Below are positions 2,613-23,122 of a stretch of DNA of 40,662 bases, piece after piece; position 1 is the stretch's first letter; each line of letters opens with the position of its first letter. The position numbers and the translations under genes were made by a program. The stretch is from an uncultured Pelagibacteraceae bacterium (GTDB lineage Bacteria; Pseudomonadota; Alphaproteobacteria; Pelagibacterales; Pelagibacteraceae), in NCBI GenBank assembly GCA_902546795.1, contig CACCLK010000007.1:1-40662 (forward strand). The letters are read 5' to 3'. The notes below the pieces were generated by a model. The model saw only the letters and a program-made list of their open reading frames with translations, was not told where the DNA came from and did no database searches.

Positions 2613-3533
2613 ATGAACTTGTTTGATAAATTTAAAGTTGGCCTTGTAAAAAGTTCATCTGGTTTAACTCAAGGATTTGAAAACATCTTTTCAAAAAAAA
2701 AAATTAACAATGAAGTCCTGGATGAGTTTGAGGAGTTGATAATCTCCTCAGATGCAGGCGTGAACGTAGCAGCTGAACTGAGAAAAGACTTTGAAAGCTT
2801 TAGGGTCGATAAAAAAATAAATGATCACAAAGAGATCTTAAAACTTTTAGCTGATAAGATGGCTATTGAACTTCTCAAATACGAAAAAGATTTAAGTTTA
2901 ATGGGAAACGCAAAAACTTCGGCTATTGTGATATCTGGGGTTAATGGAGTTGGTAAAACTACAAGTATTGGTAAATTAGGAAAGTATTTTAAAGAAAACA
3001 ACAGGTCAGTGGTTTTTGGGGCCGCAGACACTTTCAGAGCAGCAGCGATTGACCAATTGCAAATTTGGGCAGCAAAAGTCAAAGTAGATATTATTAAATC
3101 GGAGGTTAATAGTGATCCAGCATCAGTAGCTTATAAAACTGCGGAGTTTGCAAAAAAAAACCAGATTGATATTGCTTTAATCGATACCGCAGGAAGACTT
3201 CAAAATAAAAAAAATTTAATGGAAGAGTATAAAAAGATTATCAATGTTCTGAAAAAAATTGACGAAACATTCCCTAATGAGATAATTTTAGTTTTAGACG
3301 CTACAACTGGTCAAAATGCTTTAAACCAGGTGGAGGAATTTAGCAAAATTCATAATTTAACTGGGTTAATTATTACCAAACTTGATAGCACAGCTAAGGG
3401 TGGTGTAGTTCTTGCAATATGCAAAAAATATAAATTACCAATTGTTGCAATAGGTATGGGGGAAAAAGAGGACGACTTACAGCCTTTTAAAGCTGAATAC
3501 TTTTCGAAGGCATTATTGGGCGTTGAAACTTAA
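2613..3533 (+). CDS. ftsY: SRP receptor GTPase FtsY
   Basis: GVNGVGKTTSIGKLG, AADTFRAAAIDQL, DTAGRLQNKKNLM motifs. ATG at 2613 preferred over the upstream TTG of the ORF track. Confidence 0.96.
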   Translation: MNLFDKFKVGLVKSSSGLTQGFENIFSKKKINNEVLDEFEELIISSDAGVNVAAELRKDFESFRVDKKINDHKEILKLLADKMAIELLKYEKDLSLMGNAKTSAIVISGVNGVGKTTSIGKLGKYFKENNRSVVFGAADTFRAAAIDQLQIWAAKVKVDIIKSEVNSDPASVAYKTAEFAKKNQIDIALIDTAGRLQNKKNLMEEYKKIINVLKKIDETFPNEIILVLDATTGQNALNQVEEFSKIHNLTGLIITKLDSTAKGGVVLAICKKYKLPIVAIGMGEKEDDLQPFKAEYFSKALLGVET

Positions 3534-21054: not shown

Positions 21055-21288
21055 TTATATTATTTTTTTTTGAGACTTTAAAACTTGGGTAAAGATTTTT
21101 GATCTTGTTTGCAAAACTTTCTTCTCTTCCTTATTTAATTCCTGAATTTCTTTAATGAAGTTTTTTTCATATTTTTTAAGTTTATTATAAGTTCTAATAA
21201 AGAGGATTAAGCAAGAAATAAACACAATGCCAAACGATGCCCAAACATAAGCACCGTAACCATTCATTAAAAAAAGTTTTTCTATCAT
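21055..21288 (-). CDS. ccmD: Heme exporter protein CcmD
   Basis: 77 aa; GYGAYVWASFGIVFISCLIL, position between ccmC and ccmE. Confidence 0.88.
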   Translation of the reverse strand: MIEKLFLMNGYGAYVWASFGIVFISCLILFIRTYNKLKKYEKNFIKEIQELNKEEKKVLQTRSKIFTQVLKSQKKII

Positions 21289-21995
21289 AATCTTTTAACT
21301 CCAGACCTTTTTACTTTAATGATTTCTGTCTTATATTTCATTAGAAAAATTAACGCAGAGTAAAGCAATAAAATCAATAACATCAACATTAATGGCATGA
21401 GCATACTGCTATGAATTGAAGTTTCCCCAGTTATTTTTATACTTGCAGGTTGATGTAAAGTATTCCACCATTCCACTGAGTATTTAATAATCGGAATATT
21501 TATTGCACCAATTATCGAAATTATAGATGTGAACATTAACGACCTATTTTTAGGTTTAATGTGCTTTTGTGAATAAATGATCATTACATAAAAAAACATC
21601 AAAACAATCATTGAAGTTAAACGTGCATCCCACGCCCACCAAGTACCCCATGTTGGCTCAGCCCAAATAGAGCCAGTAATAATTGCTAAGCAAGTAAATA
21701 GCAAACCGATCGGGGCAATACATAAATTTACTATTTCTAAAATTTTAATCTTAAAGATAAAATTTATAATTGATAAAACAGTTAATGTAGAAAATGTTCC
21801 AAGAGCAATCCAAGCTGAAGGAACATGTACATACATTATTCTTACAACATCTCCTTGAAGATAGTCCGGTGGAGATAAAACTAAAGCAAAAGTCAAGCCT
21901 AAAATTAATAGGACAGGAAAAACTGATTTAATAAAAGTTAAAGTTTTTTCTGAAAATATATAAATTTTATTTAAAGAAAATAAATTTCTCATCAT
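21285..21995 (-). CDS. ccmC: Heme export protein CcmC
   Basis: 236 aa; WAEPTWGTWWAWDARLTSMIVL WWD domain. Confidence 0.95.
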   Translation of the reverse strand: MMRNLFSLNKIYIFSEKTLTFIKSVFPVLLILGLTFALVLSPPDYLQGDVVRIMYVHVPSAWIALGTFSTLTVLSIINFIFKIKILEIVNLCIAPIGLLFTCLAIITGSIWAEPTWGTWWAWDARLTSMIVLMFFYVMIIYSQKHIKPKNRSLMFTSIISIIGAINIPIIKYSVEWWNTLHQPASIKITGETSIHSSMLMPLMLMLLILLLYSALIFLMKYKTEIIKVKRSGVKRL

Positions 21996-22044
21996 GTTTT
22001 TTTACTACAGTATTTTTTTTGTGTGAAGATGATATTTTGGCCTA

Positions 22045-22123
22045 ATTGGGAACTGAGAGGGAGTAAGAAGTATGAGTAGTTCCCAATCAAGCTTTAAACA
22101 TTAAAAACTTATGCATACTTCTT
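22045..22123. ncRNA. Candidate H-type pseudoknot RNA upstream of ccmC (strand unresolved)
   Basis: ATTGGGAACT 22045-22054 pairs AGTTCCCAAT 22078-22087 (10 bp); AAGAAGTATG 22065-22074 in its loop pairs CATACTTCTT 22114-22123 (10 bp). No CDS in 21996-22177. Confidence 0.5.
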
Positions 22124-22177
22124 GGCATAGTTTTGAACCAATATTGTTGAATTTAAGGCGATATTACTTAAATCAGA

Positions 22178-22498
22178 TTAATTTGATGTTTTAAAATACG
22201 TTGAACCCTTTTTTCCCTCAAAAATTTCCTCTACTAAAGGGTGCTTGATTGGTTCATTGGATTTATCAATTAATAGATTTTGCTCAGATACATAAGCTTC
22301 GTATGTAACGTCATTGCTTTCAGCAAGTAGATGGTAGAAAGGTTGATCCTTCCTCGGTCTCACGTTTTTAGGTATTGATTGATACCATTCCTCAGAATTA
22401 TTGAATTCAAAATCCACATCGTAAATAACCCCTCTAAAATCGAAATGCCGATGTTTTACAACTGCGCCGATGGAAAATTTAGCTTTATTAATTGACAT
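22178..22498 (-). CDS. hspQ: Heat shock protein HspQ
   Basis: MSINKAKFSIGAVVKHRHFDFRGVIYDVDFEF...PFYHLLAE; internal ATG at 22498 preferred. Confidence 0.9.
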   Translation of the reverse strand: MSINKAKFSIGAVVKHRHFDFRGVIYDVDFEFNNSEEWYQSIPKNVRPRKDQPFYHLLAESNDVTYEAYVSEQNLLIDKSNEPIKHPLVEEIFEGKKGSTYFKTSN

Positions 22499-22576
22499 AT
22501 AATTCAACATATTAAATTTCACACCAAATGCAATATATAATTTCAACTTAAAATAATTTTGTGTTAAAATTATTAT

Positions 22577-23122
22577 GTGAATAAGTCATTGTTAAAATTT
22601 CTCACCGACCTCGGACCTTTAATAATTTTTTTTGTTGTTTATAAAAAAAGCGGCAACAATCTTAGTTCTGCTATACCACCTCTGATAATTGCGACTATAA
22701 TAGCTGTTAGTATTGTTTATTTCGTTGAAAAAAAAATTCCTTATGTTCCGTTATTAGGTGCCGTAATTATAACTTTTTTTGGTGGGTTAACCCTTTACTT
22801 TAACAACCCATTGTTTATTTATCTGAAACCTACAATTATTAATTTATTATTTGCTGCCTTTTTATTGTTAGGGAAAAATTTTTTTAACAGAAATTTTATA
22901 AAACAATTTCTCGGAAAAACATTAAGCATTTCAGATGAAGGTTGGGATAAGCTAAATAACAGATGGGCATTTTTTTTTATCTTTTTAGCTTTGCTAAATG
23001 AGATAATTTGGAGAACTCAAAGTGAACAAGTTTGGGTAAATTTTAAAGTATGGGGTATTCTTCCATTAACATTTTTATTTACTGTTTGGCAAATTTTAAT
23101 AATTAATAAATACAAAATATGA
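22577..23122 (+). CDS. yciB: Inner membrane-spanning protein YciB (septation protein A / IspZ family)
   Basis: 181 aa; FLTDLGPLIIFFVVY, WRTQSEQVWVNFKVWGILPLTFLF. Confidence 0.92.
   Translation: MNKSLLKFLTDLGPLIIFFVVYKKSGNNLSSAIPPLIIATIIAVSIVYFVEKKIPYVPLLGAVIITFFGGLTLYFNNPLFIYLKPTIINLLFAAFLLLGKNFFNRNFIKQFLGKTLSISDEGWDKLNNRWAFFFIFLALLNEIIWRTQSEQVWVNFKVWGILPLTFLFTVWQILIINKYKI

Follow-up and report, generated by a model that had tools for sequence, protein, structure and literature searches.

A conserved hairpin RNA downstream of hspQ in Pelagibacteraceae as a candidate free-standing small RNA with an exposed C-rich loop

Described small RNAs of similar design and the SAR11 locus

SAR11 bacteria count among the ocean's most abundant cells and have few transcription factors, and riboswitches are well documented in them. 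In the literature on SAR11, no described trans-acting small RNA (sRNA) was found. The CcsR or 'cuckoo' sRNAs are small alphaproteobacterial RNAs in which an anti-Shine-Dalgarno-like, C-rich motif is exposed in hairpin loops, RepG acts through a C/U-rich loop, and the OmpR-activated MicF, OmrA and OmrB are short, Hfq-dependent sRNAs whose promoters carry response-regulator half-sites. To our knowledge, Helicobacter pylori has no Hfq. RepG of H. pylori targets the tlpB G-repeat (PMC8295292), and CcsR1-4 of the alphaproteobacterium Rhodobacter are processed from the 3' UTR of ccaF1 (PMC8625941).

The hairpin RNA described here lies between hspQ and ccmC in a 40,662-nt stretch of Pelagibacteraceae DNA (the window, meaning the whole stretch that was analysed). 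It resembles the CcsR and cuckoo RNAs in having an anti-Shine-Dalgarno-like loop (UAUCUCCCUC) and in being linked to a stress-related upstream gene. Unlike CcsR, which is tandem and derived from a 3' UTR, it is single-copy and has a promoter-like element of its own, and no sequence relationship was found between the two; it further differs from the CcsR and cuckoo RNAs in having no Rfam match and in its host, as no Hfq was detected in 16 SAR11 genomes by a search in which control genomes were positive. With RepG it shares an apparently Hfq-less host and the proposed use of a C/U-rich loop against a G-rich mRNA leader, but the two are not homologous, and the target of RepG is known while for the SAR11 RNA none is established. 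A response-regulator half-site promoter like those of MicF, OmrA and OmrB is proposed for it, on a tentative reading of the half-sites, although those sRNAs depend on the Hfq that was not found in SAR11. Like the structured RNA candidates of Candidatus Pelagibacter ubique and HIMB5, it is a conserved, intergenic, SAR11-confined element found by comparative sequence analysis. Meyer 2009 (PMC2704228) lists the hspQ-ccmC region neither in its Table 1 nor among the motifs that it names, and the HIMB5 candidates HRC-1 and HRC-2 are described solely in the supplement of their report, outside its main text (PMC6429828). Set against Rfam and the motifs of Meyer 2009, the hairpin represents a new family within an established type of RNA. 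Single-copy, strongly covarying, equipped with its own promoter-like element and kept family-wide despite extreme genome streamlining, it offers a concrete trans-acting sRNA candidate for SAR11.

A conserved minus-strand hairpin between hspQ and ccmC

The intergenic region between hspQ and ccmC spans 182 bp, and the hairpin unit and both genes are co-directional on the minus strand. The features of the locus are, in window coordinates:

22178-22510, minus strand: hspQ (YccV-like, PF08755; Pfam E = 6.5e-30), upstream neighbour of the hairpin unit
22123-22151, minus strand: Block A, an upstream element in fixed register, TTCAACAATATTGGTTCAAAACTATGCCA; consensus TTnAACAnnnTTnnnTCAAAnCTnnGnCA
22114-22123, minus strand: outer arm of a second complementarity, judged coincidental; not conserved in 20 same-genus relatives
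22106-22111, minus strand: predicted -10 hexamer TAAGTT, with the TA at 22111-22110 at a fixed distance in relatives
22093-22105, minus strand: start region, with transcription predicted to begin at about 22099 from the position of the -10 hexamer
22040-22092, minus strand: conserved hairpin RNA that would form the core of the sRNA, with a 15-bp stem (22092-22078/22054-22040) and a 23-nt loop
22055-22077, minus strand: exposed loop, with the near-invariant C-rich motif ACUCCCUCUC on its 3' side; core 22057-22063
21285-21995, minus strand: ccmC (PF01578; Pfam E = 2.5e-31), downstream neighbour in the window genome

Directly before ccmC, at 21996-22030 on the minus strand, an additional stretch (CTTCAC...TATTATAGTAGT) is conserved in the genus of the window and is possibly the ccmC promoter; of this stretch, CTTCCC and TGTAGTA are common to genus g7 and missing from g9.

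Compensatory changes were found in all 15 of the 15 stem pairs in a 52-sequence family alignment, in which 95.6% of cells were paired and the covariation score was 0.678, as compared to 0.366 for shuffled and at most 0.21 for slid alignments. The same helix was recovered by RNAalifold. An earlier alignment of 18 sequences had standard pairs in 97.8% of pair cells and both-sided changes at 5 pairs, and the predicted 64-nt transcript of the window folds at -20.6 kcal/mol (z = -5.0). When the stem is read on the minus strand, it contains ∼104 G-U cells as compared to ∼4 A-C cells; because these counts would be reversed on the plus strand, the RNA is assigned to the minus strand, and covariance-model scores for the sense strand were far above those for the antisense strand. 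Judged from these alignments, positions 22040-22092 almost certainly form a conserved minus-strand hairpin RNA, and the stem covariation and the G-U excess bear out the proposal, made from the window alone, of a structured RNA in the region of 22045-22123. Within the family alignment, conservation peaks at the loop motif, which has the family form UUAUCUCCCUC and sits in a 3' side that is either UAUCUCCCUC or ACUCCCUC. The loop is G-free and pyrimidine-rich, and its UAUCUCCCUC reads like an anti-Shine-Dalgarno sequence.

That sequence-only reading had rested on two perfect 10-bp complementarities in interleaved order, 22045-22054 with 22078-22087 and 22065-22074 with 22114-22123, which it found hard to dismiss as chance and took for a possible H-type pseudoknot. 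Both matches are present at these coordinates, and their arrangement is indeed statistically unusual. When the 182-bp intergenic region was shuffled with its dinucleotides preserved, 2% of the shuffles had a 10-bp inverted repeat within 90 nt and none (0/5000) had an interleaved pair, while the whole window contains 19 10-bp inverted repeats as compared to 12.3 expected and 2 interleaved pairs as compared to 0.05 expected. Just one of the two stems is conserved, however. The first match is the core of a longer stem (22040-22054/22078-22092, 15 bp including G-U pairs), all pairs of which covary, whereas the second is private to the window genome, where the longest complement between the loop and the 5' flank is 10 nt, as compared to 3-7 nt in 20 same-genus relatives. 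Counted from the predicted transcription start, the outer arm of this second match also falls 15-24 nt upstream, and for these two reasons the pseudoknot is given up.

Distribution, upstream element and neighbouring genes

Homologues within the genus of the window were found by DNA search, and covariance model R1 matched 137 of 169 same-genus genomes; several of those without a match are also without hspQ in their assemblies. In other Pelagibacteraceae genera, the hairpin lies downstream of hspQ with a different stem sequence and the same loop motif at 89 of 89 loci, a count that is not an independent test because the loop motif itself was used to find the loci. The hairpin recurs in essentially every Pelagibacteraceae genome having the locus, with essentially one real copy of the unit per genome, and the second matches that were examined were chance hits inside other genes. 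One contig (C12 of genome G022) holds the locus twice in inverted orientation (3264-3393 and 22838-22967) with equal scores, which is probably an assembly artefact, and at locus L171 (genome G363, genus g12) the 3' half of the hairpin and its flank are tandemly repeated directly downstream. No hairpin unit was found in the genomes of family f2 tested with model R2 or in the phages searched. A class sample of 190 genomes yielded one doubtful match outside the family (G702), on a contig that carries SAR11-like hspQ and ccmC and is probably a contaminant. Nearly all named records containing the exact Pelagibacter form belong to Pelagibacteraceae, including a Ca. P. ubique single cell; one is from Halomonas, and this match and one on a viral contig fall in coding sequence of G+C-rich DNA and were set aside as chance. 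Across the genomes and records searched, the hairpin unit is confined to Pelagibacteraceae. In Rfam 15, no family matched the locus at the gathering threshold, a permissive search of the locus returned microRNA models only, far under their gathering scores, and 14 relatives from eleven genera gave no match at E values up to 1. Elsewhere in the window, at 1646-1698 on the minus strand, the Rfam ffh RNA motif (RF01793), a SAR11 element already known, was matched at 52 bits.

An alignment of 109 non-redundant upstream regions revealed Block A as a 26-bp block in constant register, each of the 109 sequences keeping at least 13 of the 16 consensus positions. It is followed, after an 11-bp gap, by TA (linker positions 12-13) in 98 of the 109 (90%), as compared to 2-28% at neighbouring positions, while the rest of the linker between Block A and the hairpin is unconserved and ranges from 18 to 33 nt in length, mostly 23-29. 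We interpret the fixed TA as the initial TA of a -10 box; in most genomes transcription would then begin 1-6 nt ahead of the hairpin, and in the window at ∼22099, 7 nt ahead of it. Past the TA, the -10 box is weakly conserved, with overall TATAAT matches of 4.0 as compared to 3.98 in shuffled sequences, and no ordinary -35 element was found in Block A at the correct spacing. Block A contains the repeats TTnAACA, TnnTnCA and TTnGACA spaced 11 bp apart, suggesting that an activator of the OmpR/PhoB kind may act in place of a -35 element. The identification of an activator site with 11-bp half-site repeats is tentative, as a repeat-lag test put 11 bp best by only a modest amount, with a lag of 9 second. 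When Block A was searched for in 15 genomes with one mismatch allowed, only the hairpin locus recurred, with essentially one site per genome, and the idea of a regulon-wide motif was rejected. The predicted promoter is well supported as a fixed-spacing element, and transcription may initiate there.

The hairpin unit is tied to neither neighbour, as judged from an insertion and a gene swap. In one genome (G106; L036, 700-1447), a methyltransferase-like gene is inserted exactly between hspQ and the intact unit of block, linker and hairpin, and in genera g11, g12 and g14 an unrelated secreted-protein gene takes the place of ccmC after the unit. Most g11 loci also carry a conserved GGTTATATG stretch just before the start of the replacement gene, resembling a promoter of its own. 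At the other end of the putative transcript, at least six T occur in the first 12 nt after the hairpin at 24 of 41 g6 loci, 5 of 20 g1 loci and none of 12 g9 loci. The hairpin and U-run could end the transcript in many Pelagibacter genomes; a common terminator is absent across loci, notably in g1 and g9, and the loop is far too long for an intrinsic terminator.

Proposed mechanism, alternatives and a candidate target

On balance, we lean toward a free-standing regulatory sRNA gene with its own predicted promoter and a loop acting on mRNAs. A free-standing sRNA had been one of the alternatives offered from the window alone, and it is now the favoured reading. That the hairpin RNA is an autonomous sRNA is probable; that it works by pairing of its loop with mRNAs is plausible but short of probable. 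According to this model, a promoter just downstream of hspQ, in which an upstream activator-type site stands at a fixed distance from a -10 box, would start transcription a few nucleotides before a stable 13-16-bp hairpin and give a minus-strand sRNA of roughly 60-75 nt. The stem would be maintained purely as structure and would present an open loop with a nearly invariant 3' side, and this loop would pair in trans with mRNAs at their G-rich, GAGGGAG-like Shine-Dalgarno regions and lower their translation without Hfq.

Were the hairpin instead part of a 5' leader, the promoter would drive ccmC or its replacement gene, and the hairpin would control that mRNA through its translation, stability or termination. 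The promoter-like element, the hairpin and the downstream gene are co-directional, the start codon usually follows 33-93 nt past the hairpin at the loci compared, and no universal terminator stands after the hairpin. The reading also stays alive because ccmC is regulated, its mRNA rising 4.74-fold in Ca. P. ubique in sulfur-limited stationary phase (PMC5069961). The unrelated downstream gene in g11, g12 and g14, the promoter-like GGTTATATG before the replacement gene in most g11 loci and the lack of any conserved alternative pairing seen with the downstream ribosome-binding site (RBS) make a leader unlikely, however. The riboswitch or leader for the heme-export or ccm operon suggested by the sequence-only reading is disfavoured because of the same gene swap and because the structure amounts to one hairpin, with no complex core conserved, although a leader role may still apply where ccmC does follow the unit. 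In its pseudoknot form, a riboswitch for heme or ccm genes does draw on interleaved 10-bp matches that occur in the window genome, but with the second stem missing in the 20 same-genus genomes examined, its outer arm lying ahead of the predicted start, and constant association with a regulated gene failing where ccmC is not downstream in three genera, it is already largely refuted by comparison and has next to no chance of being correct.

A 3'-UTR element of hspQ, either processed to an sRNA or protecting the 3' end of hspQ mRNA after Rho termination, would account for the position of the unit downstream of hspQ wherever examined. The Rhodobacter CcsR sRNAs are made by such processing (PMC8625941), and the G-free, C-rich, pyrimidine-rich loop resembles a rut-like stretch. 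We nonetheless consider this origin improbable, given the whole gene between hspQ and the intact unit in G106, the fixed-spacing TA and upstream element, which point to initiation rather than processing, and the conserved loop, which end protection does not explain. The loop might also serve not as an antisense seed but as the recognition site of an RNA-binding protein, for example a cold-shock protein, with a role in sequestration or regulation. A pyrimidine loop held single-stranded within a constant frame and the lack of a partner mRNA conserved across the family are consistent with this, and CspE and CspL of P. ubique track iron availability (PMC2864753); with its one copy per genome, however, the unit differs from known multi-site sponges, and such protein binding is a long shot.

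With regard to the preferred reading, a free-standing sRNA acting through its loop, a search for the loop complement before start codons identified one gene recurrent across genomes, that of proteorhodopsin (Pfam E = 5.7e-51). Its RBS reads GAGGGAG in g6 and at nearly all loci of g1; in g9 it is GGGAGG, a partial match, while g12 has no match and g11 a full match in 1 of 4 loci, though the loops are conserved in both of these genera. With the RBS complement missing in g12 and variable in g11, proteorhodopsin was rejected as a family-conserved target and may be regarded as a lead, not a target. An apparent match to the loop complement in f2 lies inside an open reading frame and was discarded. 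A broader, speculative and rather unlikely scenario is that of a family-wide, Hfq-independent sRNA switched on by one of the few SAR11 response regulators, which would tune abundant mRNAs with GAGGGAG-type RBSs, such as that of proteorhodopsin in many lineages, via an anti-Shine-Dalgarno loop. Separately, the proteorhodopsin leader directly upstream of the ATG (loci L305-L334 and L335-L348) is itself strongly conserved, with a TAGTTTATATAAACTA-type palindrome followed by AAAACTAAC and a GAGGGAG RBS.
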